From Streptomyces sclerotialus (GTDB taxonomy: Bacteria > Actinomycetota > Actinomycetes > Streptomycetales > Streptomycetaceae), in assembly GCF_040907265.1 (NCBI RefSeq), contig NZ_JBFOHP010000002.1, forward strand, positions 992,001 through 1,056,000: 64,000 bases of DNA. The letters run 5' to 3'. The translations under genes were made by a program, and so were the position numbers. Below, piece by piece: positions 46,128 through 63,800 of this stretch. Each line of letters begins with the position of its first letter. Within the stretch, counting starts at the first letter, position 1. A model generated the notes under the pieces. It did not search any database and had not been told where the DNA came from. It saw only the letters and a program-made list of their open reading frames with translations.

Positions 46128-47450
46128 TCACGACGGACCGACAAGGCCCTCCGACCTGGCGATCCACCCTGAACCCCCCTGGGGAGTTTCTGGGGAGTTT
46201 CGGCCGCTGACGACGACGCCGCTCTCCCCACCTCCGAACAGAGCGTCGATGGCACCCCGCCCCCTATTACCGGCCTCCGGCATGAAGTGCGCGTAGTGGT
46301 CCAGCGTGATGGTCGGCGACGAGTGCCCCAGCCACCGCGCGAGCGTAACCACCGACTCCCCCGCCTCCAACATCACTGAGGCGTACGTGTGCCGCAGCAC
46401 ATGGAAGCCGTCCTTGGGTGCCGCCGCCCACTGCCAGGGCTTCGCGCCTTCGGCCTGCGGCGGGATGACGCCGGCCTTCGCGAGGGCTGGCTTCCACACG
46501 TAGGTGTTCCACGTGTTCACCGCGACAGCATTGCCGAAGCGAGAGGTCAGCAGAAGCGGGAATTTCTTGCGTGCCATGTCCTCGCCCGGCCCTCCCCAAG
46601 GGAGCTCCACCTCCACCGGAGGAAAGTGCTCGATGTGCTGCCTCAGCTCTGCAGCCACTGAGGCGGGCATGTCCACACTGCGGGTCTTCCCACCCTTCGG
46701 AAGGGCGTAGTACAGCTTCCCACCGAGGGCCTGCACCTGCTTCCGGACGTGCAGGATGCCTCGCGCCCAGTCGATGTCCTCCGGGCCGACGCCGAACACC
46801 TCTCCTTGGCGCAGCCCGCATCCCAGGCCGAGCACCACCGCTATCCGGTGTCGGTCATTGATCAGGTCCCGGACGCGGAGTGCGGTCTCCAGCGACCATG
46901 CCTCGCGACGCTCCTTCGACGCCTTCGGCCATCGCACCGACTTCGACCGCATCGGATTCCTGACGATCCGCCGGTCGTCCACGGCAGTCTCCAAAATCGC
47001 GGACAGCTCGCCCAGAATCGCTCGCCGATAGTCGACCGACAAGACTGTCGCGTCCAACTTTGCTAGGAACGCGCGCAGTTCGGCTGCCGTCACCTGCCTG
47101 AGAGGCAGATGCCCCAGGTGCGGAACGATATGGAGCCGAACCCGCCGCTCCTGCCCCTGCCGAGTCTTCGGAGCCGCTCCCGCAGCCGGCGCCCAGAACT
47201 TGGCGATGTAGTCGGCGAGCGCAATGGACCCATCGCGCGGGTCCACGAACTCGCCCCGCTCCTCATCCGTGGAAGACCGACGAAGCCACGCCTTGGCATC
47301 CTCCAAGGTCTCGAACGACCGATCTCGGACCCCGGGGATGCCGGCGACCCGGTATCGCTTCCCCTTCCCGTAGCGGGTAGTCCGTTCCCTCTTCCCGGTT
47401 ATCGGGTCCTTCCGCTTCTTGAGCCACCTGTCTTCTACGTACCCCGGCAC
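46128..47450 (-). CDS. int: Tyrosine-type site-specific integrase
   Basis: The protein has 440 residues from GTG 47450, with GAGGAG 8 nt upstream. An N-terminal arm-binding part is followed by a SAM-like core-binding domain (about residues 85-180) and the catalytic domain. Catalytic residues seen: Arg in GCGLRQGEVFG, His-x2-Arg in FHVLRHTYAS, and His plus Tyr nucleophile in LGHSSPTITLDHYAHF. The layout is that of actinophage and AICE integrases (pSAM2-like). The stop is 34 bp from the HipA-like gene, where the attachment site should lie. The C-terminal tail is encoded by a direct repeat at 46180-46201. Confidence 0.92.
   Translation of the reverse strand: MPGYVEDRWLKKRKDPITGKRERTTRYGKGKRYRVAGIPGVRDRSFETLEDAKAWLRRSSTDEERGEFVDPRDGSIALADYIAKFWAPAAGAAPKTRQGQERRVRLHIVPHLGHLPLRQVTAAELRAFLAKLDATVLSVDYRRAILGELSAILETAVDDRRIVRNPMRSKSVRWPKASKERREAWSLETALRVRDLINDRHRIAVVLGLGCGLRQGEVFGVGPEDIDWARGILHVRKQVQALGGKLYYALPKGGKTRSVDMPASVAAELRQHIEHFPPVEVELPWGGPGEDMARKKFPLLLTSRFGNAVAVNTWNTYVWKPALAKAGVIPPQAEGAKPWQWAAAPKDGFHVLRHTYASVMLEAGESVVTLARWLGHSSPTITLDHYAHFMPEAGNRGRGAIDALFGGGESGVVVSGRNSPETPQGGSGWIARSEGLVGPS
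46180..46201. repeat. 11-bp direct repeat in the integrase 3' end
   Basis: TGGGGAGTTTC occurs twice head to tail (46180-46190 and 46191-46201). Arm-type integrase sites are often short direct repeats near attP, so it may be one. It could equally be a coding duplication (the tail reads NSPETPQ). Confidence 0.4.
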
Positions 47451-47617
47451 TCTTGCTACTCCTCGTCTTTCTGGAGGTCGTCCATGCTTCTTGCAAGCAA
47501 CACCAACCCACACCCCTCCCCGGAAGTTCCTCGACTGCGATCGGAATTCAGCGGATCCGATGCACGAGAGGGGGCCCGACTCGACGGACGCGGGCGATGC
47601 GCCAAATGCGCTCACCG

Positions 47618-47881
47618 TCAAGCAGCGACCCGCGACCGATGCTGCGGCTCGCGCTCCAGTGGACTCAGCAGCGGATTCGACCGCGAGTCAGCAGCCTCTT
47701 GCTGACCTATCCACGCGTCGAGCGCGGAGACCCGATACATGACCCTGCCGCCCATGCGGAAACTGGGCGGCCCCTGCCGCCTATGCCGCCACACGTACAG
47801 AGTGTTCTCAGAGATACCGAGGTAAGAGGCTGCCCTCTTGACTGTCAGGAAAGCCGCGACAGGGGCGGTGGCGTCAGACAT
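47618..47881 (-). CDS. xis: Excisionase-like helix-turn-helix protein
   Basis: The protein has 87 residues from ATG 47881, preceded by GGAAGGG. FLTVKRAASYLGISENTLYV then WRHRRQGPPSFRMGGRVMYR is the MerR-like excisionase fold (HTH_17) used by phage and AICE Xis proteins to bend DNA. It lies 167 bp upstream of int on the same strand, as in pSAM2-type elements, and is likely co-expressed with it. It could instead control integrase expression. Confidence 0.85.
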   Translation of the reverse strand: MSDATAPVAAFLTVKRAASYLGISENTLYVWRHRRQGPPSFRMGGRVMYRVSALDAWIGQQEAADSRSNPLLSPLEREPQHRSRVAA

Positions 47882-48033
47882 GTCAGCCCTTCCATCTGCA
47901 AGGTCGTTACGCAGATGAGAGTGCACGCAAGAACACTGTTTGGTTGTGCCGCGTTTACCTGCTAATGCAATAGATCAGCTTCGATACCCGCGCCTCGGCC
48001 TCAGCTCAGTGGTACCTGACCAATCACAACAAA

Positions 48034-48129: not shown

Positions 48130-51100
48130 TTAACCGCCGAGTGTCACACACCGCTGAAGCAGTGGCTCCAAGCGCAGCTGCATGCCGTCGCGGTCGAACA
48201 CCTGAAGGGCATCGAGACACGAGAAGACCCAGCGGGCCTCTTCCTCGTCCCCGGCCTGGTACGCGATGGCGGTCACCATGGCCTCCGTGTCGACCAGGTC
48301 TCCATGGAGCTCAGCGCCGATGGCCCGGTATCCCGCAGCAAGCTGCGGGTCCGCATACACACCCGTCTCCTCGACAAATGCGCGGGCCGCTGAGGGATCC
48401 GTGAGCATGACGGCCAATCGCCGCAGGACCTCGTCGGGGTCGCCGAGCTCACCATGCAGCTGGTGGGCGCGGTCGACGAGGAGTGGCCAGCCGCTCGTCA
48501 GCGCGTAGAGTCGGTCCAGGCGTTCGTCCGTGTTGAACACCTCGACTTGCTGTGCCCACCCTCGCAAGCTGCTGCGGTCGTGGCGGCGCAGCACCACAGG
48601 AAGCGCCGAGGTGCGTTCCTGACCCGTCAGCAGGACACGCCACAGGTCCAGTTGCCGGGTGTCAGTCACGAGCACTACCGCCCGGGTCACTCCTGGAGTA
48701 ATGGGGAGCAGGGTCTCTGCCAGGTCGACGGCCTCGCGGCAGGTCTCCGGCTTGGCCGGGTAACGGGCGAAGTCGCTGATGATCACTCGTCGCTCGCGGG
48801 GCCGCCCGCCCGTGAGTTCCTGCTTGAACACGCTGGGCTTGCCGATAGGGGGAAGCTTCCAGTCCGCGATGCGTCCTGCGACCGCGCGCAGGGTGTCGCC
48901 CACGTCGCCGATTCCGGTAGCCGGTGTTCCCAGGACAACCCGCGTCTGGTTGGCGCGCTCACCGAGAAGGTCATCGAGCTGGGTGATAGTGAGGGGCGCG
49001 GGTCGCCGGTCGGGCAGCTCAGGTCGTCCCTCCAGCACGATGCTTTCTTCCAGTTTGCAGTCCTGTTCGGCCCTCAGCAGACGGGCCTCCACCTCGTGGG
49101 ATGTACCGATCATGCGCAGCGCGTTCGGTCCTCTCAGATGCCAGCCCTGACCGTCGTGGTTGGGCGCGAGGACGCCCAGCCCCACCATTTCGGAGAGGTA
49201 GGCCCGGAACCCCTCGGTGTCGAGCTGCTGGAAACCCTGCCGCCACCAGGTTTCACACTCCTCACGCAGTTCGGCGTCGCTCAGGCGCACTTCCAGACCG
49301 CGGTGACGAGCGTGGTACGCGAGAACGTTGGCGATCACGTCATAACGGTGGTCCAGGCTCAGGGTGTCCTTGAAGGCCGCTGAGATGCCCGTCCTGAGGG
49401 CAACATCGGACTCCACGGCCTCGATGTCGGCTACCTGCACCGTATACGGAGGTCCCTCAAGTCCGCGCCGTGCCCGCTTGCGGTGCATCAGCTCGACCAG
49501 CCGGTGGCCGAACATCTGCAGAAGGAACGGCTGGTACGAGCAGTAGCCCAGCACCCGATTCACCAGGTCAACGTCGTCGAACTCGAAGCCGAGTGCCCGC
49601 ATCGGCTCCACCAGCAGTTCGGCGGCGAACTGCGGAGAAAGCGGGCCGATCACCTTCGGGGTCTGCGCCAGATGACCGAACGGACCGTTACTCGCGAGCT
49701 TGGAAAAACGCTGCACGGAGTGCAGGCCGGCGAAGACCACCTTGGCCCGGTCTTTGGTGTCGCTGCCGAGTCCCTTCAGCTTCTTGGTCTGGTCGAATCG
49801 AGGAGCGTCCGCCTCGAAGAACTGGTCACACTCGTCGAGCAGGATCAGCAGCCGGCGCCGTGAATCGTCGTCGAGCCAGCTGCGGATTCCGGCCCGCACG
49901 CGCTCGGAGCGTTCCCGCTGCGACTTGCGCCCTTGGGGTCGGCCCAGAACTTCGGCCTCGGTCAGCTCCCGGTCCAGGACGCTCCACAACGCCTCCGGCC
50001 CGAGGGAGCTGCCCTTGCCGATGTTTTCCTGGTCCAGGTTCACGTACACCGATTGATGGAATCCTGCTCGCTGCTCCATGAAGCGTTCTCCGGCGTCACT
50101 GAGCAGGGCCGACTTGCCCAGCCCACGACCGCCGAAGATGACCTGGGTGCCGCGCGGGTCGAGGATGCTTTTGCGTTCCGCGTCCCGCCCGTAGAACATC
50201 TCACCACCGATGCGGCCGCGCTTTTCTCTGATATACGGATTAACACCGGAGAACGGCAGTAGCGTCTGCGTGGCCGTACTGACCTGCCGACTGCCGCGGG
50301 CCGCAAGGTAGGCCAAGGCCGCGTCGTCCACGACGAGGAGTGGCTGTAGGCGGTCGGATCCAGCGGCGAGCTCTGCTCGGGCCTCCCGGCCGAGCGTGCC
50401 GAAGTAGACGACCAGCAGACTGGTCTCACTGGGGTCCCGGGACGCCAGGCTCATGACGACCTCGGCGGGTGGGCGGCCCCATACCATCAGCACCCGGAGG
50501 TTGCCGCCTTGCTCCTTGATCTGCGAGCCAAAGGCCGGCACCTTTGCCCGTCCGTTGACCTCCACGCCGGTCGCTTCGAAAAAGCGGTACTCCCGCCGCT
50601 GCGGCGACAGTTCGTCCAGCGACCTGGCACTCTTCGCGTCGTACCCCAGAAGCTTCAAGGCCGGGAGCAGCTTCCGCCGGGCAGAGACGTTGGGCCGGTC
50701 CTTCGGCTCGGTGGCACCCAGCTCACGCCAGTCGTTCAGGGCGTCCGCCGCCAGTGCCGCCTCGTCGCTGGAGAGGTTTACGTAGTCCAGTACCGGAACG
50801 GTGGGGTGCTTGCCGCCAGAGCGAACCACTTCGACGAGTTCGTGATCGATGCCCCTGGGGAGTCCGTCTGGCACGGCGGGGAAGAACTCCGTCAGGTGGG
50901 ATTCGCCTGCCTCGATGTCCGGAACCTCTTCGCCGATCTCCAGGAAGTAGACGAGGTCTGCTGCGGTCGCCAGGCCGCCGGTGTCCAGGTGTCGCAGAAC
51001 GCGCGCCCGTTCGTCGTCCGTGACCTCCAAGGCGTCCAGGCGTGCCCGGATTCGGTCGGTCGCCTCCTGCCTGTGCGCAGGCAGGTCCGATCGGACCGTT

Positions 51101-54100
51101 TCCAGGGCCCGTCGCACGTCGTTGAGTTCGCGGTGATCGACGTCGTCGAGGCTCTTGCGCGCGTCAGCCAGCAGCTCTTGCAACCGTAGGTCCTGGTCGT
51201 CGGTCACCGCGCCGTCGGCCTGAGCCCGGTGCAGCTCCGCGACGAGTTCGTCGTGGACAGCCCGGAGCGCAGTACGCCTCGTGGCTTCCAGCTCCTCGAT
51301 CTCCGCGCTCGTCGCCGCTCCGAACGTCACTCCGTCGGAAGCCGGCAGCGCGCCCTTGTCAGCCAGCTCCACAATTGCCCGAGCCGCCGTGAACGCGTCA
51401 CGGCTGAGCCGCTCGCGCAGCGCATCTTCCCAGCCGAGGTCCACCGCCGTCAGAAGCACCCCAAGTGAGGGCCGCTCTCCGACCGTGTCGCATACCTTCA
51501 ACAACTCCGCGTCCAGGACGAGCTCCGGGTTGTCCCCACTGCCGGGACGCACGGTGCCGATGTCCCCCGACAGCAACGAGAAGAGTTCCTCCATGGCACT
51601 GCGCGCTGCCCATGCAGCTGCTGCGGTGAAACTACCGGGTCGCCTCGCCAACCGTTCGAGCTCCGTCAGGACGGCATCACGACGCACCAGCATCGACTGA
51701 CGCAGGGCCGAAACCTCCTTGGCAGCCCGGCTGCCGTCCGACCGGTCACCTCGCTGAATCCCGTCGACCGCCAGGCACCAGTCCTTGGCCAGCCCCACGG
51801 CCCGCTCGACGATGTGCACGAGGTCTTGTCGCCCGGAGCCCTGAAGCGGCCTACTGCTCGATGCACGGTGCTTGCGGTCCATACGGTCGATCTCGCCGTT
51901 GATCTCTGCCAGTTTCGACAGACGCTCCGTCCTCTCTTGGACGGTCGACAAGGCGTCACGGTCATCGTTGATCACAGCCGTGAGCATGGAGCCGAGCAAC
52001 CCCTCATCAGGGTCCAGCCATCGTTTGACGATGTCTGTAGCCCTGGCGAATCGGAGCCGCTGTGGTGCGATGAGGGCGCTGCACTGCGTGCGAAGCTCCC
52101 GCAATCTGGCCTCGGTCTCGGAGACGTCGGCGATCACGCCCAGTGGGGAGACAATCATCAGGGCACCGCTGAGTGCACGGTCTGCGACTGCGGTCGCCAC
52201 TTCGGCGAGCGCGTCCGGGAGCCGAGGCACCATGGCCTTGAGCTGGGCGCCGGCCAGGTGGTCACCGGTGATCAGAGCCGCACGCAAGAGAGCCGGAAGC
52301 AGAACGAGGTCACTGGTTTCGGCGTCACGGCCGGCGAAACTACTCTGTTGCTGGAGCAGATCCGCGACCAGCCGGGCCCCGTGACTGGTGCCAGAGGTGA
52401 GGAGTGCCGCCGCACCAGCCAGCCGGAGCGCTGTCACTTGGGGGTCGGGGCGACCTGCGGCTCGCGCCACATGGTGGGCGAGTCCGAAGCGCCGCTCCGC
52501 AACCAGTCTCGCCAAGGCGCGCTCGGCCTCAGCCCCGTCGTCATCCAGATCGGCTGCTTCCTCCTTCGGGGCCTCCTCCTCGTACGAGGTGCTGTCGGCG
52601 GGCGCAGGTGCAGGGGCGCCGTCATCCGCGGTCGCTGTGGTGTGCCCGATTGCGTGGTGGAGCTTCGTGGGTGCGGTTTCCTCGTCCCCGACAAAGGGAC
52701 CAGCCGTTGAGGCCGCATCAAGCGCCTTGGGAGCAGATGGTTCCGGAGAAACCGCTTCCGGGCCCACGGTCGGCTGCGGGGCTGCATGGGCTGCGGGCAT
52801 GGAGTTCTCGGTGGCCTCGTCAGGGGTGTCCCTGGCGGTGCTCTGCTCGGCGGTCTCTGTGATCGAAGCCTCGGAAGGTGTTGTGATCAGATGCCGGCCC
52901 GTCACCGAGTCGGTCACTGGGGTACTGGCCTCCGCCTCGGTGCTGCCGGGCCCGTCTGTTTCAGTGGGGTCCTGTCCCACGGGGTCTCCCGCCGAGCCAG
53001 GCAGTGTCAGTTCGTGTGCCATCACTGCCGCCATGGCGCATGCAGGCAGCACACGTACGACCTGTTCCTGAAGGGCCAGGATTTCCGTCGCGGCATCCGT
53101 CTGCCGCCCCAGCCGGACAAGGTCGGCGAGGGCGGTGAGCGCGGTGCTCTCCTGCCGCTCCGTCTCTCCCCACATCGCAACGCCGAGGAGCCGTCCGGCG
53201 ACGGCACGCACGGCCTCAGCGGCAGCGGCAGCGGCAGCGGGGCTGTCCTTCCGGCAATCGATGGACAGCATTTCCCGCAGGTTCTGTCGCGCAGCTCGAT
53301 CGCGGTCACGTGTCGAGCGATACAGCTGTGCGGCCCGCCTCATGTCTTCCAAGCGGAGCTGCCCCACGGCTATGCCCGCCGTGACGAACACGGTCCGAGC
53401 ACTGTCGAATCGAGCCTCCAGCCCAGTCAACGGGGCCAGGTCAGCCGGGGCGGGAGGGCGTCCGTCCAGGACCGCCGCGGTGACCCGCTCCGCGGCCCCT
53501 GCGGCCTCGGAAAGGGCGGACTGCAACTTCCGGCAGACTTCTTCCGGATCCGCAACGTCATCGACCGCAGAGTCATCCGATACCGCGGTGGGCGTCTCCT
53601 GGCCCGAGGCGTGCCGTGTCGACGCAGTCGGAGAGGCCAGCAGGTCCACGCCGGAGGGCCGGTCCTTCACGGTCGTCACCTGCACACCTTTGTGTTCGGA
53701 GTCGCTGAGGGCTTCAGGTTCGCCGACAACGAAGTCCGGATGCGCGTCCACCAGGGCCTGCGCTGCAGCCCGTACAGCGTCAAAAGCCTGCGCAGCGTCT
53801 TCGCTCGCCGCCCCGAACCAGTCCTCGGCCGCCGCCCAGGAGAGGAGGTAAGCGTCAGCGACCGAGGCGTTGCACCATGCGAACAGGGCAGCTCGGACCA
53901 GTGGTCCGCCCCACCGGGACACGGGGACCGAGGCGGCCTCGCTGCCGTCCGCGAAGGCGGCATTCTTCACATCGTTCAGCACGGCACGGGTGAGTGTTTT
54001 TACGCCGCCGGTGCGCGAGTGCTGCCGCACCTCACGCTGCAGCCTGTTCAGTACGTCACGGCACAGGGCGCTGCCCGCTCTTCGAGGAGCTGCCATGCGG

Positions 54101-54309
54101 ATCCCCAGGCGGCTGAGCAGACTTTGCCGGTCTCTGGGCGGAAGGGAGTTGAAGGCCAGCTCCACCATGCCGACCGTGAGGTCGTCCATGGCGGTGGCGA
54201 CTGGGCGTTCCAGTGCGTTGAGCTCTGCGGCCAAAGCCTCAAGGCTCTCCACCGAGACACTTTGCGGTGACATCGGCGGTTTCGCTACGACGTGGTAAGC
54301 GTCCTGCAT
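48130..54309 (-). CDS. Giant protein with a STAND/AAA-type P-loop ATPase module (unassigned; candidate conflict-system ATPase)
   Basis: About 2059 residues from ATG 54309 (GGAG upstream); ATG 54324 adds five residues. The first 500 residues are helical, then comes an acidic, Pro/Ala/Ser/Thr-rich linker (about 420-590) and a long alpha-helical, coiled-coil-prone region (about 600-1250) with REase- or Rossmann-like VLMVWGRPP...LLVVYFGTLG near 1300. The ATPase block (about 1375-1700) starts MFYGRDAERKSIL, then Walker A GGRGLGKSALL, Walker B LLILLDECDQFFE and a winged-helix-like part; a further C-terminal domain of about 350 residues follows. The order 'FYGR...GGRGLGKSALL' is the style of STAND/ORC-like ATPases in bacterial defence. 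I do not recognise the whole protein. It is downstream of the 826-codon gene on the same strand (99 bp) and probably in one operon with it. Confidence 0.8.
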   Translation of the reverse strand: MQDAYHVVAKPPMSPQSVSVESLEALAAELNALERPVATAMDDLTVGMVELAFNSLPPRDRQSLLSRLGIRMAAPRRAGSALCRDVLNRLQREVRQHSRTGGVKTLTRAVLNDVKNAAFADGSEAASVPVSRWGGPLVRAALFAWCNASVADAYLLSWAAAEDWFGAASEDAAQAFDAVRAAAQALVDAHPDFVVGEPEALSDSEHKGVQVTTVKDRPSGVDLLASPTASTRHASGQETPTAVSDDSAVDDVADPEEVCRKLQSALSEAAGAAERVTAAVLDGRPPAPADLAPLTGLEARFDSARTVFVTAGIAVGQLRLEDMRRAAQLYRSTRDRDRAARQNLREMLSIDCRKDSPAAAAAAAEAVRAVAGRLLGVAMWGETERQESTALTALADLVRLGRQTDAATEILALQEQVVRVLPACAMAAVMAHELTLPGSAGDPVGQDPTETDGPGSTEAEASTPVTDSVTGRHLITTPSEASITETAEQSTARDTPDEATENSMPAAHAAPQPTVGPEAVSPEPSAPKALDAASTAGPFVGDEETAPTKLHHAIGHTTATADDGAPAPAPADSTSYEEEAPKEEAADLDDDGAEAERALARLVAERRFGLAHHVARAAGRPDPQVTALRLAGAAALLTSGTSHGARLVADLLQQQSSFAGRDAETSDLVLLPALLRAALITGDHLAGAQLKAMVPRLPDALAEVATAVADRALSGALMIVSPLGVIADVSETEARLRELRTQCSALIAPQRLRFARATDIVKRWLDPDEGLLGSMLTAVINDDRDALSTVQERTERLSKLAEINGEIDRMDRKHRASSSRPLQGSGRQDLVHIVERAVGLAKDWCLAVDGIQRGDRSDGSRAAKEVSALRQSMLVRRDAVLTELERLARRPGSFTAAAAWAARSAMEELFSLLSGDIGTVRPGSGDNPELVLDAELLKVCDTVGERPSLGVLLTAVDLGWEDALRERLSRDAFTAARAIVELADKGALPASDGVTFGAATSAEIEELEATRRTALRAVHDELVAELHRAQADGAVTDDQDLRLQELLADARKSLDDVDHRELNDVRRALETVRSDLPAHRQEATDRIRARLDALEVTDDERARVLRHLDTGGLATAADLVYFLEIGEEVPDIEAGESHLTEFFPAVPDGLPRGIDHELVEVVRSGGKHPTVPVLDYVNLSSDEAALAADALNDWRELGATEPKDRPNVSARRKLLPALKLLGYDAKSARSLDELSPQRREYRFFEATGVEVNGRAKVPAFGSQIKEQGGNLRVLMVWGRPPAEVVMSLASRDPSETSLLVVYFGTLGREARAELAAGSDRLQPLLVVDDAALAYLAARGSRQVSTATQTLLPFSGVNPYIREKRGRIGGEMFYGRDAERKSILDPRGTQVIFGGRGLGKSALLSDAGERFMEQRAGFHQSVYVNLDQENIGKGSSLGPEALWSVLDRELTEAEVLGRPQGRKSQRERSERVRAGIRSWLDDDSRRRLLILLDECDQFFEADAPRFDQTKKLKGLGSDTKDRAKVVFAGLHSVQRFSKLASNGPFGHLAQTPKVIGPLSPQFAAELLVEPMRALGFEFDDVDLVNRVLGYCSYQPFLLQMFGHRLVELMHRKRARRGLEGPPYTVQVADIEAVESDVALRTGISAAFKDTLSLDHRYDVIANVLAYHARHRGLEVRLSDAELREECETWWRQGFQQLDTEGFRAYLSEMVGLGVLAPNHDGQGWHLRGPNALRMIGTSHEVEARLLRAEQDCKLEESIVLEGRPELPDRRPAPLTITQLDDLLGERANQTRVVLGTPATGIGDVGDTLRAVAGRIADWKLPPIGKPSVFKQELTGGRPRERRVIISDFARYPAKPETCREAVDLAETLLPITPGVTRAVVLVTDTRQLDLWRVLLTGQERTSALPVVLRRHDRSSLRGWAQQVEVFNTDERLDRLYALTSGWPLLVDRAHQLHGELGDPDEVLRRLAVMLTDPSAARAFVEETGVYADPQLAAGYRAIGAELHGDLVDTEAMVTAIAYQAGDEEEARWVFSCLDALQVFDRDGMQLRLEPLLQRCVTLGG

Positions 54310-54408
54310 ACCTGCGTACTCCATCCGAAGATGCGGGCGCTTTCGCCCGGTGACACCAGGCTCTGAGCGCGAGGAAGGGTTGGTCGCGAGCGAGCTCTCG
54401 CCAAAGAC

Positions 54409-56772
54409 TCAGTGACCGCGGGTGTGCTCGGTCACGAAGGTGTATCCCTGGGGTAGTTCCCAGCCGTCAGCCTTGCCGAGCCTTCGGCAGTGTTCCCGAA
54501 AGGCAGTCCGCTGGGTTTCGCTCGGCGAGCAACCAGGCCGCAAGCGGCGCAGATGCCCAGGCACATACTGCATGCGCATCGGCTCATCTGCCGATCCGGT
54601 AGCTCCCCAGGGATGCCTTACGCGCACTCGGGCCGGACGGTAACCGATGAGCGGTATGACCGGTTGCCCGAAGCATGCCGGGAAATGAGGTTGGCCGGTG
54701 GAGTCACGGCTGCCGACGGCAGGTTCGAGGAACCGCTCGGTGAGCAGTTGCTCCACCGCTGCTTCCAGCGCGGCCGACTGTCTACGGGATGGGCGCCGCC
54801 CGTAGACGGCAAGCGGCAAACCTAAGCGATCGAGCAGAGCGTGACCGTCAACTGTCAGCAGCCCACAGCGTCGCACCGTGCGCATTACCAGTTGCCGTGG
54901 GCCGAGGCCCACTGCCGTGTCACCGTTACGATCGCTGCCCGGGGCGTCTTCCCGCGTGAGAACACAAGGGTCGTAGTAGTGGCCGACAAGTCGGTCACCG
55001 ACTTGCACCGGCTGATCGAGCCGGGACGTCACAACGCGGATTGACCGGCTCCCGCGGCGCCAGTGCAGCTGGAGCATCAGGCCGGGGAAGTAATCGAGGG
55101 GCCAGACGATTCCGGTCAGCCAGCCGGTTTCGCTGCCGAGTTCTGCCACGGTGTTCTGTACCCCTTCGGCGGCGTCCAGAGTGCCGCCGGGGTGATCGAG
55201 TTCTAGCCGTAGGGCGGGACGCCTTCCGAAGGCCCTTTGCAGTTCCTCGGCGATGGGCGAGCGCAGAGGCAGACAGCCGTCGATGAGGTGCGCCAAGCGC
55301 AGCGGCAGTCGCCAAATGAACTCATCCTGTCCGTCCTGCAGCAGCTCGCTCGGCCCAAGGACAGCATCGTCCGGGAGCGGAAGATCGGCCGGCTCCGGCT
55401 CCGGCTCCCTACCCATCGTGGACGTCCATCCCAGCCCGGCCGGGGCCAGGGGGTTCGCCGGCGCTTCCGTGTCACCGGGATTACGGGAACGCCAGACACC
55501 TCCTCCTTGGAAGGCGTCGTCGAGCACCACTCGCGTACCGTTCGCGAACAACCCCTGCTCACTGTCGCGCTGAACGACGTCCGCGAGCGCCACATTCGCC
55601 CGGCACACCGCCGCGGCGTACCCCACCCCCTTGAGGAGTTCCTTGGCCCCGGGGAACGCTCGTAAGCGAGGACCGACCGCCGTGTAGACGGCGGTCGGAG
55701 CGGTGAGTCCGAAGCGGCGCCGCGAAGGGGTGGCCGCCCGTTCCACGGTGGCCGCGAGAGTTCTTAAGTCGTCACCACCCAACGGTCCGCTGTCGCGCCA
55801 GCCGGCCGCCAGGGCCGACCGTGACACGGCGTACGGCCCCCAGGTACGAAGCAAGTCACTGGAGGTGAGTATGCGCTGAACCGTACCGAGCAGGCGTAGC
55901 AGGCCGGCGCGGATCGCTTCGTCGTCCGTGCTCCCCACGAGATCGGCGATGGACACGGGAACGAATGGGCTGAGGAGCTGCGCCCGTGCGGTGGTCATCA
56001 AGTAGTCCGTGTAGGCGGACAGGTCATCGCGCTGGGCCGCCTCTTGCGACGGATAGCGAGCTTCGACGACGAGATGGCCGTCCTCGTTGATCCAGCGCTG
56101 GTGATTGCATAAACGGTGGACCTGGGCAGGCGAAAGACTCACACCGGGCCCAAAAGCGTGTGGATCCGGGACCAGAAGTTCCCGGCGACGCGGAGAGGCC
56201 TCCGACCCAGGCCTGCCCGGGCCCTCGGCACCCGCCGGCGCTCCGGACACCCAGCCCGGCACCTCGCCGAGCTCACCTATGTCCGGGTGGGCGCCCTCCT
56301 TGTAGACGATCTCGGCAAAGAGCGGATCCGACCCCGTGGCCACGCACACCATGGCGCCCACCGGGAGCGCTGCCGCGCACTCACCGAGAGCGGCCACAGG
56401 GAAGTCGTCCAGGCGGAGAGGGCTGCGGCCGTAACCGTCACCACCGAGGTCGTAGCCGAAGTACACGGCATTGAAAGCGACAGCGGCGTGCAGGGGTATG
56501 CCACGGACAGTGATGACCGCTTCCAAGTACCGGAGTAACCGCTCCCGTTCCACCGCCGGTACCGCGTCATGGCCCGCCACCATGGCGGGGGTCAACAACG
56601 CCTGGTCTCCATAAGGGTCCGAGACCTTGGCCGCGGCATGACCCACCCGAGACGCCGGCAAGCCCTCGGCTGGATTCCTCTGCCCCAACTGCCCGACCCC
56701 GTACTTTAAATGATCTTCAGGCAGCCCTCCAGACTTCCCGACGGCTGCTGGTCTCCGCGGCTCCCCACCCAT
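54409..56772 (-). CDS. Large protein of unknown family, partner of the giant ATPase
   Basis: About 787 residues from ATG 56772, which has GGAGG just upstream; the open frame continues 39 codons further 5'. No motif I can assign. The body is mixed alpha/beta with several conserved-looking stretches: HDAVPAVERERLLRYLEAVI, GIPLHAAVAFNAVYFGYDLG, NGTRVVLDDAFQGGGVWRS, DEFIWRLPLRLAHLIDG. The tail, QYVPGHLRRLRPGCSPS...ELPQGYTFVTEHTRGH, has the look of a conserved C-terminal signature. There is no obvious nuclease or transmembrane motif. It precedes the giant ATPase gene in the same direction, so the two likely act together. An AT-rich inverted repeat lies upstream of its start. Confidence 0.75.
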   Translation of the reverse strand: MGGEPRRPAAVGKSGGLPEDHLKYGVGQLGQRNPAEGLPASRVGHAAAKVSDPYGDQALLTPAMVAGHDAVPAVERERLLRYLEAVITVRGIPLHAAVAFNAVYFGYDLGGDGYGRSPLRLDDFPVAALGECAAALPVGAMVCVATGSDPLFAEIVYKEGAHPDIGELGEVPGWVSGAPAGAEGPGRPGSEASPRRRELLVPDPHAFGPGVSLSPAQVHRLCNHQRWINEDGHLVVEARYPSQEAAQRDDLSAYTDYLMTTARAQLLSPFVPVSIADLVGSTDDEAIRAGLLRLLGTVQRILTSSDLLRTWGPYAVSRSALAAGWRDSGPLGGDDLRTLAATVERAATPSRRRFGLTAPTAVYTAVGPRLRAFPGAKELLKGVGYAAAVCRANVALADVVQRDSEQGLFANGTRVVLDDAFQGGGVWRSRNPGDTEAPANPLAPAGLGWTSTMGREPEPEPADLPLPDDAVLGPSELLQDGQDEFIWRLPLRLAHLIDGCLPLRSPIAEELQRAFGRRPALRLELDHPGGTLDAAEGVQNTVAELGSETGWLTGIVWPLDYFPGLMLQLHWRRGSRSIRVVTSRLDQPVQVGDRLVGHYYDPCVLTREDAPGSDRNGDTAVGLGPRQLVMRTVRRCGLLTVDGHALLDRLGLPLAVYGRRPSRRQSAALEAAVEQLLTERFLEPAVGSRDSTGQPHFPACFGQPVIPLIGYRPARVRVRHPWGATGSADEPMRMQYVPGHLRRLRPGCSPSETQRTAFREHCRRLGKADGWELPQGYTFVTEHTRGH

Positions 56773-56809
56773 GACACCTCCGCCGCACCATAGGCCTCTC
56801 GACCCAAAT

Positions 56810-56830
56810 GCATATTGATTAAGAATATGC
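56810..56830. promoter_or_regulatory. AT-rich operator-like inverted repeat before the two-gene ATPase operon
   Basis: GCATATT (56810-56816) and AATATGC (56824-56830) are perfect 7-bp arms around a 7-bp centre (GATTAAG). It lies 38-58 bp before ATG 56772 in DNA that is otherwise GC-rich and is likely the promoter/operator of the operon. Confidence 0.6.
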
Positions 56831-57380
56831 CTGCCTTCGGCACTCCCGCCACGTTTTCGACCGTCTCTTCGTTGCAGCTCAGTCGTCACCCTGCTTGCCC
56901 CCGCCCCATGGGCCGACGAGCTGCACCGGACTGGGTCAACCTCACAGTCGTCACCGACCCAGACCAGCAGTCCCTAGCTGAACCACCAGGTCGACTCCAT
57001 ACGATGACGGCCTTGCGCGACCATCCACGTAGGTTCTGGGCCCATGTACTGGTCGGGGCCAGCGTGACGGTACGCGGTAGCCCTTACGCGCACAGTCCTG
57101 CCTGCTCGGTGGGCGGGACACGCTCCGGGTACACCCGCGTACAGGAACGTGGTCCACCGCTTGCCTTCAGTGCGGCGGAGCCCGTTGGCGCTTCCCTGCC
57201 GACCTGGGGATGCACCACGGACGCCGGACCGCCCTCCCGTGGGGAAGACGTACGGCGCACCACACCGCGTCGGCGAAGAAGCCTGCCCGGCCCGCGCCCT
57301 CTCCCTTGACTATCGAGCTACGCGATATTCGCCACCGTGCCTCCCGCACTGGCGAAGCGCAGACACTTACCGTTCACGCT
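56831..57380. other. 550-bp intergenic region between the ATPase operon and the PIN gene
   Basis: No convincing gene. Open frames here on both strands lack family similarity, usable ribosome-binding sites or conserved composition. The region must hold the plus-strand promoter of the PIN gene and perhaps part of the divergent operon's control region. Confidence 0.5.
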
Positions 57381-57872
57381 ATGCGCCGCTACGTTTTCGA
57401 CTCCAACGCAGTGGACCCCATCGCTGATCTCCCTGGGGCTTACGAAGTGGTTCGCGCAGCGGTCGATGAGAAGCACATCGAGATCCTCTTCCCGCATATC
57501 ACGCTAGACGAGCTGTCCCAGGTTAAGGAGCTGGAACGCCGGCAGCTGCTGCTGGTAGTGCTGGTCAGCCTTGCCCGGCTCGTCTTCAGCGGTGGGTTCG
57601 TCCTCGACCAGTCGAGGCTCGATCAAGCTCGTCTGAGCGAAGACACGGTCACCTTCGATGTCCTGAAATCGGGCAAGGACAGGAACACCCGCGATGCTTT
57701 GATCGGAGTGACGGCAGAATTCGAGCAGTGCACGCTTGTAACCAGAGACGACGAACTTTCACGAAATGCTCATGCGAACGGGGGCGACGTCGTCGCCCCA
57801 CTCGACTTCCTTGCGCAGCTCGGCTTCGCCGACAGCGCTGAGCAAGCACCTTCGCCACCATGGATGAGATAG
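57381..57872 (+). CDS. PIN-domain (predicted RNase) protein
   Basis: The protein has 163 residues from ATG 57381, which lacks a good ribosome-binding site, so it may be leaderless. The PIN fold is indicated by YVFDSNAVDPI (Asp 7), FPHITLDELSQV (Glu 44), TRDALIGVTAEFEQCTLVTR with Asp 105, and the following DDEL (Asp 123 region), which together give the acidic metal site. PIN proteins are typically VapC toxins or other RNases. No vapB-like antitoxin gene of the usual small AbrB/RHH type is next to it, so it may be a single-gene effector or a component of the neighbouring conflict systems. Transcribed opposite to both neighbours. Confidence 0.82.
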   Translation: MRRYVFDSNAVDPIADLPGAYEVVRAAVDEKHIEILFPHITLDELSQVKELERRQLLLVVLVSLARLVFSGGFVLDQSRLDQARLSEDTVTFDVLKSGKDRNTRDALIGVTAEFEQCTLVTRDDELSRNAHANGGDVVAPLDFLAQLGFADSAEQAPSPPWMR

Positions 57873-58140
57873 CGCAGAGAAGCACAAGAACATACGCGCC
57901 AGTCCCGAATAATCCCACTGACGTCAGCGCGCTTCCGCGTCCCTCGCCCCTCGGCGAGCGACCCGACATGAGTTGCCCTGGGAGCGGCTGTGCTGCACCG
58001 GCCAAGCGCCTGCGGTCACCTCCCACCCCCCTGGTCGTCTTCGGTGACACCCCTGGCCCGGACAACGACAGCAGTCCCTCACTTGAATGCAGGTGCCGGC
58101 CTTGGACGCCAGCCTGCGGACATAGCGGCACTCTCAGTGG
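57873..58140. other. 268-bp convergent gap between the PIN and pPIWI-RE genes
   Basis: No gene, and I see no clear hairpin terminator. The two genes converge here. Confidence 0.5.
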
Positions 58141-60804
58141 TCAGGAGACGTCCTCGCCGATCTGGTCGGCCTCGCTTTCGAAGCTGGAGCCACGGTATTC
58201 GGGGTGGTTCCGATCAACTGCTCCTGCAACGTGGAGTGGTACAGGATGGCGGGTGCGTGCGTCCCAGGCGAGTGACTGATGGCACAGTGCTGCGGCTAGT
58301 GCGGCGAGATCCTTCGCCTTGTGCTGGCCGGGCTGCGGCACGGTGATCTGAGTTGCGGTGAAACTGTGCCAGTCCTTGCGCAGCAGTGTCTCTTTGAGGT
58401 GGCTCGGAATCGTGAACCGGGTGCAGGTACTGCCATTAATGCTGGTCTGGCCGAAGCCATCGTAGCTGCGCGACTTCTGGGCGAAGTACCAGCTGGTCAC
58501 CCCTGTGGCTGTGGCTCGTTCGTGCAGCCAGTCGTCGGGGGCTTGTGGCCGAGCGGGGTCACGCCGGCCTCGGGCGTCGGCGCGGTCGACGGGGGTGGGT
58601 ACTTCGCCGTACGACGTGTTGATGCTGACCACGGCAACCGAGCGTCCGTTGTCATCGAGCCCCTCGCTGGGAAGCGTGCCTTCACCGAATTGGGCATGTT
58701 GCAACCCTGGCCAGATGGTCCGGCATGCCTCTGTGTCCACGAAGATGATGAGGGGTGTCTGGCCCGGGAGAATCCGCAGCGCCGCCTTAATGTGTTCACG
58801 GACAAGGGCAGCGCCTTCTTTGTGGCGAGCGTGCTGATCGACACCGATCGGTCCGGCACCGAAGGAAGCCTCTCCTTGCGGAAGCGGTAGCCAGGCATGA
58901 TCGCGGCGGCTGTACATCTCCAGTCGCCAGGGCTGGCGCGGATCCGGATCGGTGTGCAGGGCCGTGAGGACCTCCACCATCTGGGTCTTGTCGGCAGCGC
59001 CGAACCTCTGGCTGACCCGCTGCTGGCGCAGGTGTAGGCCGACAAGGATCGCTGGGTGATCGAGCGCGACCCCCTCGGCGAGACGTCCGTCCACCGCGCC
59101 CAAGCGGAACGTCAGGTCGCGCAACCCGTTGATCGCCGGATAGTCCAGCCGGGGCCGTCGCTGCTTCGGCTTCTTGACCTCCTCACGCTCCTCGGGCGCG
59201 GGGGCGTCGTCAGCTTCGGGTGTCTGAAGCTCGGCACCGGCCTCAAGGTTCTTAGGCAGGCAGTCTTCGTCTTCGGGCTTGGGCGGTTTCGGGCGCGGAC
59301 GATGAGCGATGAACTGGGAGACCACGCCTCGCAGGTGAAAGTTTCGGCGGAGGTCACGCTTCGGATCATAGATGTCGGACTGTTGGCTCTTGCGAGCGGT
59401 GCGCTTCTTGGGGTTCCAGAGTGTTTCGACCCATACGCCGGTGAGCGCAGTCTTCGCAAGGGGGGCGAGGAAGGCGAGTTCGCGGTCCCAATCGACTGGT
59501 ACCGGGGAGACAAGAGCAGGCATGCGCCGGAATTGGACCCAAAGCTTATCCGTGAGCCGGTGATCGCGGGTGTCGACCCATTCCTTGGCTTGTTCGGGTT
59601 CCTCAAGGTACGGGCTGAGAGCAGTGATCATGCGTTCGCGTGTGTACTCCGCGTCGTACAAAGCGAGGATTCGCACGCGGTCCTGTCCGGTGCCGCTCAG
59701 CGCGTGGTCGAGGTCTTCCCGTAGGACTGGCCCCTTCGTATGGCGGACTACCTCCACGTCGGTTCGTTCATATGTGACCTGCTCAGCCTTCAGCTTGGCT
59801 GTGGCCTCCTTGATGTGGTTGGCCAGATGGAGGTTGAAGCGAGTGCCCGTGCCCTTTCCCAGCGGATGCTCGGTGGGGCCGGGAACCAAGGCGCGTACCG
59901 ATCCGCACACCTTGGCCAGGGTTTCGTTGGTGCCGAGTTCGATCGCCTCAAGGTTGCAGGCCGCGACGACCTGGGCCGCGAAGTTGCGAGCGTAGGGTTC
60001 CCAACCTTCCTCGGTGCGGCGGTGGCCGACAGGAATGCGAAGCACAGTGTTCTTTCCGCGTTGAACGAACGCGGTGCGAGTGCCGGCCCAGTGGGTGGCC
60101 AGCCTGCTGAACGTCGGTAGCACGTGAATGCCGACCCGGGGCTCGCCGGGGAGCGTGATGACCCGGAAGTCGAGTTTGTGCATCGCGTAGCCGACCCGCG
60201 CCGGCCTCTCGGTCTTGCCTTCCAGTACGTGGCTCCACGCGAGCAGACTGCCTCTGGTGTCCATGAGCCAGTGGAGACGCTGACCCGCGTCTGCCACGCC
60301 CCCGGGCAGGTGGAGCGGGGCGCGCGCGAGCGTTGCGGCGAAGTTCCATGCGGCGACTCGGTAGAACCACTGCGGCGCGCGCGGTCGGCCGGCGCCCGCG
60401 TCTCGGATGAAGCTGTCGAGTTTGGGCTTGACCATCTCGCCCTGCGCCAGGAGCGGGGCGAGGACGTTTTCGTCGACGCCGCCGCGGATGAGCTGCTCCC
60501 AGCTGCGGATGGCCCGTGTGAGCAGACGTGGCGCGATGGGCTTGGTGGTGGCCAGGACAGCGGGAACGGTGAGGTCGTCGTCGGGCGGCGCGATGGTGTC
60601 CGGCATGATCACGACGGGTTGGTTGGTCACCGCGGAGAGCGCTGTGGCGAGTCCTGCGTAGGCGGGCCGTACCGGCTTGGAGGTGTCGTTGTCTCGGTAG
60701 CGCGGCAGCTCGCTCCATGCCTGAGCAAAGTCCTCGCTCAGCTTGTAGAGCACGACAGAGCCGAGACGCTTGGGGTCAAGGAGGTAGGCCAGGGAGGTCA
60801 GCAT
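58141..60804 (-). CDS. pPIWI-RE family protein (predicted PIWI with conserved R and E)
   Basis: The protein has 887 residues from ATG 60804, overlapping the helicase stop by 7 bp. The N-terminal ~400 residues form the module seen in this family (with GTGTRFNLHLANHIKE) and a MID-like segment, DRVRILALYDAEYTRERMIT. A Pro/Glu/Lys-rich linker (about 510-565) precedes the RNase H/PIWI region: ILVGLHLRQQRVSQRFGAAD, PLIIFVDTEACRTIWPGLQH (first acidic residues, about 690), and the C-terminal FTATQITVPQ and LCHQSLAWDARTRHPVPLHVA (about 845), which carries the family's R and E region. It lies next to a DinG-like helicase, as known for the family. Predicted role: recognition or cleavage of invader nucleic acid such as R-loops. 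No experimental data that I know of for this group. Confidence 0.85.
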   Translation of the reverse strand: MLTSLAYLLDPKRLGSVVLYKLSEDFAQAWSELPRYRDNDTSKPVRPAYAGLATALSAVTNQPVVIMPDTIAPPDDDLTVPAVLATTKPIAPRLLTRAIRSWEQLIRGGVDENVLAPLLAQGEMVKPKLDSFIRDAGAGRPRAPQWFYRVAAWNFAATLARAPLHLPGGVADAGQRLHWLMDTRGSLLAWSHVLEGKTERPARVGYAMHKLDFRVITLPGEPRVGIHVLPTFSRLATHWAGTRTAFVQRGKNTVLRIPVGHRRTEEGWEPYARNFAAQVVAACNLEAIELGTNETLAKVCGSVRALVPGPTEHPLGKGTGTRFNLHLANHIKEATAKLKAEQVTYERTDVEVVRHTKGPVLREDLDHALSGTGQDRVRILALYDAEYTRERMITALSPYLEEPEQAKEWVDTRDHRLTDKLWVQFRRMPALVSPVPVDWDRELAFLAPLAKTALTGVWVETLWNPKKRTARKSQQSDIYDPKRDLRRNFHLRGVVSQFIAHRPRPKPPKPEDEDCLPKNLEAGAELQTPEADDAPAPEEREEVKKPKQRRPRLDYPAINGLRDLTFRLGAVDGRLAEGVALDHPAILVGLHLRQQRVSQRFGAADKTQMVEVLTALHTDPDPRQPWRLEMYSRRDHAWLPLPQGEASFGAGPIGVDQHARHKEGAALVREHIKAALRILPGQTPLIIFVDTEACRTIWPGLQHAQFGEGTLPSEGLDDNGRSVAVVSINTSYGEVPTPVDRADARGRRDPARPQAPDDWLHERATATGVTSWYFAQKSRSYDGFGQTSINGSTCTRFTIPSHLKETLLRKDWHSFTATQITVPQPGQHKAKDLAALAAALCHQSLAWDARTRHPVPLHVAGAVDRNHPEYRGSSFESEADQIGEDVS

Positions 60805-63800
60805 GCAGTGTCCAGGGAGTCGGCGGTGACTGAGTGGCTGTCGGCGAACTTGAAGAAGGCCCGTAGAGCCTCGCCGTTGGTGGTGAGCAGCGTGTCGAGT
60901 TCACCGGAGCGAGCCCAGTCACCACGGAGCTGCCGAATGAGATTAGGTAGGTCGGAGTTACCCTTTGGGTCCAGGAAGGCGTAGTCGACGAGCCGGATCC
61001 GGCCAGGTGTGCCACCGCGGCGGGCGCGTCCGACCAGCTGGATGATGGAGGCGATGAGCTCGGCCGCGATGGCCTTTTTCGCCCGACGGGGCAGCGCGCT
61101 GAAATAGCGCTCGCTGCTGAGCAGATCGTCGAAGTACTGGCCAGAGACCTGCTTGGATCGTGCAAGTGCGCGCCAAGGTTGGTCGTCGAGATATTGATCG
61201 TCGAGGGCTCTCGCGCCCACGTGAGCGAGCAGTTCATCAGGGTCGTCAACGATCGACATCGGACGTACCGCGAGCCAGATGGAGCCGATCCGGGAGCGGC
61301 GCTCGCCGGGGGTGAGAATGTTGAGGCTGCGCTCGGCTCGCTTGAGTGGGGCGATGAGAATGCGAGCGTGCGCTAGGGCGCCGAAGTCCTCCAGCTGATC
61401 GCCGGTGATCTCGATCCAGGGCCGGTCCTCAACTTCCGGCTCAGGCATCGTCTCGGTGTTCGTGTCAGGTCGTACCGCTACCGCGATCAGGCCCGGCGGC
61501 GCGCCGGCGGCGCGCAGCCCTTCGGCCAGGTCTCGACAGCTCTGATAGGAGGTTGTCGCGAGCAGGATCGCATCCTGGATACCAGGGAGGTTGCCTTCGG
61601 CGAGCCCTTCGAGTTCCCGGGAGAGCTCGCTCCACAGTTTCATGCCGAGCTCTCTCGTGGCCTCACGTCTCTTCTTCCCGGTCAGCCCCGAGATCCGGAT
61701 CATTTCGCCGGTCAGGTCGGGAATGGCTCGGGCGTCGATCACGACCGATGAGCCTTCGTCCGGCACGATGAACTGGGGCCGGGTGTGGATGTGGTGCCGG
61801 TGTGCGCCTGGCATATAGGCGGTCGCCGACAGGCCGAGGACGACTCTCGGGTGCCCCGAGTGAGCGAGTGCGGCGGTCTGCCCCAGCGAAGTGATGTAGC
61901 GGTGCGGGTCACCGCCGAACGCGGCAGCGCTGAGCTTGGTCTCGTGGGGGGATTTGGGGTTGTGGTCCTCGGTAAAGGCGAACACCAGTCGCCCGAGCGG
62001 TCCGTGCGGGATGGCCTTCCACTTTTCGTAGCCGCCCAGGGCCTGGGCGATCTCCTCTGCCGCCGGGACGCCGGCGAGCGCCAGCTGTGGGGCATCGTGG
62101 ACGAAGCTGTACAGCATGTCCCTCAGGGGAACGAGGAACATTCTGCGTACCAGCCGGTCGATCACAGCGGCTCGGGTCTTCGGCGCAGGGACCCAGGAGG
62201 CCAGCATCTCGAACAGCTCGCCGCGGGCGTTCTCCAGAATCCCGGCAGCGTCAGCGGCGGTGGTGATCGAGCGCACTGTTTGCGTGAATTCGCGGACATG
62301 CGCGGGCAGGAGGTGCGTGGCGATCTTGCTGTCGTACACGGCTTCCAGCAGCACGGCGGCGCCTGCGGGCTGCTGAGGTTCGGGAATGCTGGACACTTGG
62401 GCGACGTCGTCGGCAAGGAACGCGGCGAGGTGCCTGCCCAGCCACCCGTCCCAGCGCTGTGGAACAATCCACCGACGGCCGCCTCGGTGTTTGCGTAGTT
62501 TGTGGTGCGGATCGTCCGGGAGTTGCTCGCTCAGGGTGAGGTCGCCTCGTGCCAGGTGCATGGTGTAGGTCTCGGCCAGGCGCCTGCACTCCGACACGTT
62601 GGAGCGTGCCCGCTCTTCCAAGGCTGCGGGCAGTCGGTTGAAGGCGCTGACGAGCTGGGTGTCCGTCTCCAGGAGTGGGCGATCGTGCCCACGATCGCCC
62701 CACGCCAGTGTCAGCCCCCGCCCGGAGCGGTCCATCACTGTCGACTGGAAGGCGTCGAGCTCATCGATCAGGATGACCTGGGCGCGTGTCGTGAGGAACT
62801 TCTCCACGCTGATCTTTTCGTCCACCACCCCGTCGTCGGTCTCCAGGGGGATGTGCATGCGTCCCTCGTAGAGGTTGGTGTGCGTGGTGACGATGATCTG
62901 CGCGGAACTTGCCTGTCGGGCCAGGCGGAACTTGCCACAGCCCTGCCGGAAGGGGCAGACCCTCGGGGCCGGCATGCTCCGGTAGGGTTCACCTCGCTCT
63001 GGACGTACGGGTGTCAGCTTTGTGCAGGGCTCTCCGCCGGGCACCCATGTGTCAACTGCCTCGTCTACCGAGGCGCATGCGGGCAATTGACAGGAGTAGC
63101 CGATCCGGGCGAAGACCCAGTCGACGTAGTCCGGGTCGTGTGCACCCTTGACCGCTCGATCCAGTTCTCGCATCAGGCTGTTCGGCGACATCAACGGGAC
63201 CACCACTGTTGAGGCGTCGACCCCCAGTCGCTTTAGAACGCCCCACTCGTCCAGGTCCTGTTCGATCGCGTGGGCGAGCTTCAGGGCGTTTGCATTGGTA
63301 TCGACGATCAGGGCCACTGTTTGTCCCTCTTGCACGGCCCAGGTCGCGTAACTCCGCAGCAGCACGCTCTTGCCTGAGCCCGTGGGGGCGCTCAGCACTC
63401 TCGTCGGCCCCGCCTGCAGCCTCAGGATGTTCTCGACTGCTTCTCCCCGTGCGGTACGCATCTTCTTGAAAAAGGGGGTCAGGGTTTCAGCCCGGAACGC
63501 CTTACCCGTCGCCTCATCGAGCTCTGTGTTGAGCTGCAGGAAGGGCTCGATTTTGAGCGCTGCCTCCACGAGTTCCGGAGCGGTGGACAACCGTACTGGT
63601 GACGATTGCCGTGGCGGGGTCTGGTGCTCTTCGAAGGTGTAGTAGGCGAGCACGGGTGCGCTCTGCCGGCCGGCCATAGGCACCCGCAGTGTGTGGGTGT
63701 ACTCACCGGGCTTCGCGATCGGGCTGGTGATCAGCTGTGCCGCCCGGATGTCATCCATCTCTTTCAGGAGCTGGTCAACGCAGGCACGGGGCTCAAGGCC

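Follow-up and report, generated by a model that had tools for sequence, protein, structure and literature searches.

Systems that combine an Orc/STAND-type ATPase with winged helix-turn-helix (wHTH) DNA binding are described for BREX and for DndFGH-like capture systems in the accessible text of two sources (PMC12839542, PMC10853773); in BREX, as presented in the available part of the first (PMC12839542), a large Orc/STAND scaffold (BrxC, Orc/Cdc6; BrxB, an inactive STAND) is accompanied by a separate multi-wHTH DNA binder, BrxA or PglW. In LlaJI and McrBC, a B3-like DNA-reading domain works with an AAA+ NTPase, and Avs is built on a giant STAND ATPase. Here, these systems are compared with a gene pair in a 64,000-nt stretch of Streptomyces sclerotialus DNA (GCF_040907265.1, contig NZ_JBFOHP010000002.1, positions 992,001 to 1,056,000 of the forward strand), referred to as the window. 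The pair consists of NTP, the gene for a giant ATPase, and MID, its upstream partner; a third gene, HEL, encodes a helicase-nuclease and accompanies the pair in most divergent loci. With moderate confidence, MID-NTP is read as a branch of an actinobacterial restriction-type DNA-targeting conflict system that has lost HEL, and in which MID would read the DNA, NTP would act as the switch and HEL would destroy the target.

The pair occupies the following positions in the window:

48130..54324, minus strand: NTP, giant STAND-type ATPase, 2064 amino acids (aa), or 2059 aa from Met6 at 54309 (open reading frame list, homologues)
54409..56772, minus strand: MID, predicted DNA-recognition protein, 787 aa (open reading frame, homologues, conserved start, Shine-Dalgarno sequence)

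A preliminary description made from the sequence had placed here two large adjacent minus-strand genes, the downstream one of about 2060 residues and the upstream one of 826 codons, 99 bp apart. Both open reading frames (ORFs) and the size of NTP are confirmed. The 826-aa reading of MID, which runs from a GTG (54409..56889, minus strand), very probably begins too early: an MGG(D/E)P start is conserved at ATG 56772 in the aligned close relatives (in L024 and L027 it is the first start of the MID ORF), and GGAGG lies just 5' of this ATG, so that MID is most likely 787 aa, ending at the coordinate which the description itself had given. The 99-bp gap applies if NTP begins at Met6; from ATG 54324 the gap is 84 bp.

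In 12 pairs compared, eight of them from the two-gene clade, the ratio of nonsynonymous to synonymous substitution (dN/dS) is 0.18-0.29 for NTP and 0.19-0.44 for MID. NTP and MID are intact, adjacent and under purifying selection and, because these values include pairs from the two-gene clade, the HEL-less pair is a working unit rather than debris. The same low dN/dS, together with the number of homologues, indicates that the pair is not a product of chance ORFs: roughly 8000 candidates were scored per query, and at E <= 1e-3 the database gives at least 827 protein matches to NTP residues 1250-2060 and at least 432 to the 826-aa MID ORF. Where named, the sources of the best 120 matches listed for each query are nearly all Streptomyces and its kin, and adjacent locus tags appear repeatedly among these matches. 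In Pfam, PADLOC and NCBIfam, MID has no significant match and NTP has weak AAA_22/ATPase_2 matches only, and no model of the three names the MID-NTP-HEL set. No description of the set was found in the literature searched, which mostly excludes subscription papers and so does not prove absence in print; the view that no known system shows this arrangement is upheld within that scope.

MID and NTP travel together. Among 80 related loci (from named species representatives; the best 80 of 107), 63 contain both genes at full length, in Streptomyces, Kitasatospora, Nonomuraea, Microtetraspora, Acrocarpospora, Amycolatopsis, Pseudonocardia, Microlunatus and a Geodermatophilaceae bacterium. When loci with MID below 600 aa, NTP below 1500 aa or HEL below 900 aa are excluded, 64 of 81 loci, the window counted in, remain for the MID-NTP comparison, and the pairwise distances of the two proteins correlate at 0.98. 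The correlation is 0.89 within the two-gene clade and 0.96 among loci with all three genes, with none of 2000 permutations as high in either set, and HEL distances correlate at 0.94 with both MID and NTP. Shared species history may add to these values, which were computed without an unrelated control gene. Across 101 Streptomyces genomes, any NTP match, some of them weak, occurs in 18. Strong matches (E < 1e-180) are found in 13 genomes besides that of the window: nine have an intact MID-NTP pair, two have NTP split over several ORFs beside MID, and two have a truncated NTP with no recognised MID. The intact pair is therefore present in 10 of 101 genomes, the window's included, and its absence from most Streptomyces shows that it has no housekeeping role.

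In the first five divergent Streptomyces copies, an upstream third gene, for a large helicase, is present in L031, L032, L033 and L034 and absent from L035; in two of the four, L031 and L032, it shares 4 bp with MID. Four complete HEL proteins measure 1971, 1993, 2010 and 1985 aa. An exonuclease is recognised by RNase_T (E 1.9e-10 in L043, 6.6e-10 in L044) or phrog_192 (E 3.3e-15 in L042), with no Pfam exonuclease match in the HEL of L041. The exonuclease is joined by two helicases, one of DinG/XPD type (Helicase_C_2) and one of RecQ type (DEAD plus Helicase_C). Six aligned HELs retain the exonuclease motifs DxE, DFP and HxA-D, both Walker A motifs, a DEAH box in the DinG part (once DEGH), and the RecQ-type DEAHTxxxW, FRP and GRAGRD motifs. 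Judged by these motifs, HEL is a fusion of a DEDDh-type exonuclease with DinG/XPD-like and RecQ-like helicases.

Several described machines can be compared with this fusion. RecBCD and AddAB combine two motors with a nuclease. HEL is analogous in having two motors, of predicted opposite polarity, and a nuclease, and differs in its unrelated helicase families, its single polypeptide and its fixed MID and NTP partners. The RecQ module of three HEL pieces is recognised by the PADLOC models PsyrT (E 2.5e-50 to 9e-52) and, at best E 2.6e-61 to 1.3e-63, DpdF. In contrast to PsyrTA and DpdF, HEL adds the DinG/XPD helicase and the DEDDh exonuclease, and the other components differ; neither MID nor NTP matches a PsyrA model of PADLOC, the other neighbours not having been scanned one by one. 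A YprA-type helicase with DUF1998 defines DISARM, Druantia and ARMADA, whereas four full HELs contain DEAD, Helicase_C and Helicase_C_2 and no DUF1998. The terms "RecQ" and "pPIWI" do not occur in the accessible text of a DinG review (PMC11981726), nor "RecQ" and "DinG" in that of a YprA preprint (PMC12458937).

Among the 64 loci with full MID and NTP, HEL is present in 32 of the 33 outside the window's Streptomyces/Kitasatospora clade and is seen in none of the 31 inside it. The DNA available 5' of MID in this clade is 0.2 kb in L061, almost nothing, 1.1 kb in L082, 2.6 kb in L066 and at least 3.4 kb in the rest. In a tree built by a quick method, with some long branches, the window's clade forms one branch (SH-aLRT 100) nested among HEL-bearing loci, and the distant HEL-less copy L153 branches outside it; the tree label "none", for loci without HEL, also takes in L129 (which begins inside MID), L122 (Nocardiopsis), L132 and L153. 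Because the HEL-less clade is nested in this way, the simplest reading of the tree is that HEL was lost in the window's lineage, most simply once. HEL was not found elsewhere in nine genomes with window-clade copies, where a query of HEL residues 901-1993 scores at most 106 bits; in the four genomes that have HEL, including the one that supplied the query, it scores at least 1316.7 bits. HEL is also missing nearby at L132, L035 and the distant plasmid copy L153. We therefore infer that the pair is a shortened form of a three-gene operon, HEL-MID-NTP. The earlier proposal of an undescribed two-gene defence system stands in so far as the pair is a conserved accessory STAND-ATPase unit that no library names, and is revised in that the two-gene form derives from a three-gene one.

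Deeper relatives keep the same company. A search for distant relatives of MID gives 79 proteins, of which two carry the name Thermoleophilia or Solirubrobacterales; a search of the phylum with alignment A3 finds 5 of 296, a lower bound with three candidates scored per genome. In L156, the MID protein is identical to one named Thermoleophilia, and HEL overlaps MID by 4 bp. In another genome of the phylum (L158), NTP and HEL are accompanied by a weak MID-like match (E 3.6e-6), the gene order being different.

HEL resembles a set of RecQ, DinG and exonuclease, which would also suit a host DNA repair or recombination module. Such a role is highly improbable, given the patchy presence, the truncated copies, the varied neighbours and the lack of HEL in a whole clade. 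That clade is a natural experiment, in which MID and NTP remain under purifying selection with no adjacent helicase gene.

Alignment of 12 NTP proteins shows conservation from end to end except for approximately residues 201-600, within which residues 426-600 form a linker rich in Ala, Thr, Pro and Glu. With AlphaFold2 (AF2) secondary structure, predicted for the part of NTP beyond residue 999, the protein is divided as follows:

52525..53724, minus strand: NTP residues 201-600, poorly conserved (identity/gap table, composition)
50293..50631, minus strand: NTP residues ~1232-1344, conserved alpha/beta domain that directly precedes the ATPase (AF2 secondary structure, conserved columns)
49075..50244, minus strand: NTP residues ~1361-1750, STAND/Orc-Cdc6 NTPase core with winged helix (Walker A and B intact)
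48133..48990, minus strand: NTP residues ~1779-2064, C-terminal alpha/beta and helical domain with a TGGWP-like motif (AF2 secondary structure)

The ATPase core that the preliminary description had placed deep in the giant protein (FYGR...GGRGLGKSALL...LLDECD) is real: Walker A, GGRGLGKSALL, lies at about residues 1398-1408, Walker B is LLDECD, and the core spans ~1361-1750 of 2064. Pfam AAA_22 matches weakly at residues 1392-1538 (E 1.9e-4, under the family cut-off). As in STAND NTPases, a P-loop with Walker A and B is followed by a winged helix in a predicted NB-ARC/MNS-like fold. NTP is thus predicted to be a STAND/Orc-type ATPase with a winged helix, the ATPase part lying towards the end of a long and mostly helical chain. 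Profile comparison of the domain before the core with the ATPase and the C-terminal domain is negative, and no family is assigned to it. The C-terminal domain is perhaps, from its modelled fold, a degenerate second STAND-like domain; its similarity to the ATPase is not detected by profile comparison.

The STAND fold raises the alternative that NTP is an Avs-like sensor of a phage protein, with an effector in its long N-terminal part and MID as a regulator or DNA-binding helper. Avs3 is indeed among the Foldseek matches (8dgc, E 1.4e-5), but at a TM score of only 0.21 by query length. The PADLOC library holds Avs models. With PADLOC 2.0.0, no curated Avs model matches MID or NTP; the only matches to NTP are PDC-S01 (E 0.07) and MTase_I (E 0.09), with none for MID. 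Pfam finds no effector domain in NTP. Unlike Avs, the module places its ATPase late in the chain, with only ~315 residues beyond the winged helix, and has a constant partner that is a predicted DNA-reading protein; most divergent copies add the helicase-exonuclease. An Avs-like sensor is accordingly considered unlikely.

More distant ATPases lie at the edge of this family. Two Streptomyces carry an NTP relative of 27% identity (L036:5428-11686 and L037:5528-13075), whose downstream partner differs from MID (500-576 aa, no family found); one genome (G015) has both this type and the MID-paired form. Proteins of ~2000 aa in L039 and L040 are weakly NTP-like (25-26%), lie beside conserved genes of ~526, 305 and 283 aa, and probably represent another ATPase family.

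For MID, the AF2 model (pLDDT 87.0, pTM 0.61) suggests three regions:

55804..56607, minus strand: MID residues ~56-323, winged-helix-like elements (predicted fold)
54973..55338, minus strand: MID residues ~479-600, B3-like DNA-recognition pseudobarrel (predicted fold)
54631..54912, minus strand: MID residues ~621-714, winged helix (predicted fold)

The upstream protein had been described as lacking any recognisable motif. By sequence this is so; the predicted fold, in contrast, places a B3-like DNA-recognition domain, as in EcoRII, BfiI and LlaJI.R1, between winged helices. Foldseek against the PDB and viral models gives no match at E <= 1e-3, and a closer look at its rows revealed the B3 matches, of which LlaJI.R1-N is the best by probability (0.72) among the matches listed. 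No relative of MID was found in the viral contigs scanned (10 pattern matches, none confirmed). Two proteins share only the C-terminal half of MID, that is, B3 plus winged helix (L155:10822-12972 and L157:10110-12518); one sits on a conjugative Streptomyces plasmid, and they possibly form a family of separate DNA readers.

The module shares with LlaJI and McrBC the use of a B3-like reader with an NTPase. It differs in dividing recognition and ATPase between two proteins of much greater size, in the STAND/Orc-like character of its NTPase, and in the helicase-exonuclease partner of most divergent loci; no McrC/LlaJI.R2-type nuclease matches the window proteins scanned or HEL. The module also resembles BREX and DndFGH-like systems in its Orc/STAND-plus-wHTH logic, with different components: the module has a DinG-RecQ-exonuclease partner, no PglZ, BrxX/PglX or BrxC matches the window proteins scanned, and the window's genome has no PglZ match.

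If the module acts in defence, as we infer, the reaction would involve: reading of DNA by the predicted B3-like domain and winged helices of MID; assembly of NTP, as an ATP-driven STAND/Orc switch, on the MID-marked DNA; and unwinding by the DinG/XPD-type and RecQ-type motors of HEL, with digestion by its DEDDh exonuclease. In the window's HEL-less branch, the pair itself may block or mark invading DNA. Alternatively, a nuclease of the host could take over the DNA, as could the adjacent pPIWI-RE enzymes in the case of this island. As no methyltransferase is recognised in MID, NTP or HEL, discrimination of self from non-self may, speculatively, rest on modified DNA or on site avoidance. No phenotype for the module appears in the literature searched.

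More tentatively, and with real doubt, the module could represent a new class of actinobacterial DNA immunity, in which a B3 reader licenses a STAND/Orc ATPase to load a DEDDh-DinG-RecQ enzyme on invading, perhaps modified DNA; its core could drop the helicase, pPIWI-RE may be an alternative executioner, and part of the methyl-specific restriction of Streptomyces could be explained. Methyl-specific restriction is known in S. coelicolor, the pair Sco3261-62 included (accessible text of PMC3874153). The module was not equated with that pair: its islet, SCO3250-3270, comprises 21 genes in 14.0 kb (available part of PMC1934918), too small to hold the 8.6-kb pair comfortably, a judgement by size and not by sequence. 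If its function is confirmed, the module would be a multi-gene system that has no name so far and that extends to several further families of actinobacteria; its B3 recognition domain and STAND switch would be combined in a way for which no description was found, with a three-enzyme fusion as executioner. For hosts of industrial importance, the genes are also concrete candidates as barriers to DNA transfer.

The position given earlier, between an excisionase/integrase pair and a pPIWI-RE system, is borne out by the neighbours:

46128..47621, minus strand: tyrosine integrase (family match)
47618..47926, minus strand: small helix-turn-helix, excisionase-like ORF (from sequence)
57381..57872, plus strand: PIN-domain gene between MID and PprPIWI (PF01850, E 1.2e-5)
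58141..60804, minus strand: PprPIWI of the pPIWI-RE system (PADLOC PprPIWI E 4.9e-78; Pfam PF13032)
60798..63836, minus strand: PprDinG (PADLOC E 2.7e-107; PF18154 E 1.2e-13; the ORF continues past the window)
L003:145-1269, beyond the window: PprRE, which completes the pPIWI-RE triad

An ORF at 57649-58131 (minus strand) is probably spurious, having no family and overlapping the PIN gene. A HipA-like gene is also near the pair. Farther out are a DNA methyltransferase, NlpC/P60, and weak EccE-like and AAA matches; NlpC/P60 and the last two may point to a conjugative element. Over 403 aa, the integrase of the window shares 66.5% identity with the one that adjoins the three-gene copy L044.

Such surroundings, and the existence of plasmid copies, are compatible with a module that serves its mobile element in replication initiation, partition or conjugation; an Orc/Cdc6-like ATPase with a winged helix recalls Orc-like ATPases, and B3 plus winged helices could read origins as origin-binding proteins do. 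This role is improbable nonetheless: copies lie in contigs with differing neighbours, several of them chromosome-sized, no conserved replication or transfer gene is seen beside the module in the gene calls, and HEL carries a DEDDh exonuclease. In an incomplete plasmid-collection table, MID homologues are not listed as genes on NZ_CP116356.1 (L153:15992-18154), NC_016113.1 and NC_017585.1.

The pPIWI-RE neighbours permit a further reading, in which MID-NTP is an accessory part of a five-gene system, RE-DinG-PIWI-MID-NTP. This order and strand recur on the S. xanthophaeus plasmid (L153), where MID is unannotated and MID and NTP are only ~26-32% identical to those of the window. In six of the 80 other loci (L081, L083, L087, L096, L120 and L121; L083 is from the same genome as L031), pPIWI-RE genes adjoin the module or lie up to ~7 kb away, against a chance expectation of ~0.05 of 80 loci (~8.6 Mb per genome, 15 kb per locus, ignoring kinship and defence-island clustering). 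L087 and L096 show only RE and DinG before the stretch ends, and PADLOC confirms pPIWI-RE at L031 and, for DinG and PIWI, at L121. As a control, none of 16 PglZ places (open frames >900 aa) lies within 20 kb of pPIWI-RE, only six of these genomes holding both; of the 10 genomes with intact MID-NTP, 2 have pPIWI-RE beside it (1 of 9 without the window). Against a five-gene system, no pPIWI-RE gene is found in 74 of the 80 loci, in the stretch examined (searched with three reference systems only, some stretches being short); pPIWI-RE occurs in 31 of 101 Streptomyces genomes (38 RNaseH_pPIWI_RE matches), mostly without an intact pair; and the PIN gene on the opposite strand separates the two in the window. 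The published form is a lone gene or a triad (Burroughs et al. 2013, accessible text of PMC3702460), and MID and NTP match no Ppr model in PADLOC; the complete triad lies next door. Like pPIWI-RE, HEL includes a DinG-type helicase; the module has neither PIWI nor restriction endonuclease. The module and pPIWI-RE are arranged in several ways (upstream or downstream on the same strand, or convergent), which suggests that the linkage arose more than once, yet it remains rare. The five-gene reading is unlikely, and the HEL-less branch of a separate conflict system is preferred.

Other genes occur near the module in some loci. AbiEii/AbiEi-like toxin-antitoxin genes are found at L023, L025 (the same locus as L082), L042, L043, L063, L071 and L074, by PF08843 at L042 (E 2e-16) and by BLAST or by eye at the others, with the AbiEi-like partner only at L074. 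To the right of the window, in the same island, lies a DNA methyltransferase (PF01555; L003:2190-2939, minus strand), with no BLAST relative in the related loci searched. At L030 and L034, an RHS-repeat protein of ~1578 aa with a type VII secretion signal stands beside the module with small partners, and looks like part of a polymorphic toxin locus.
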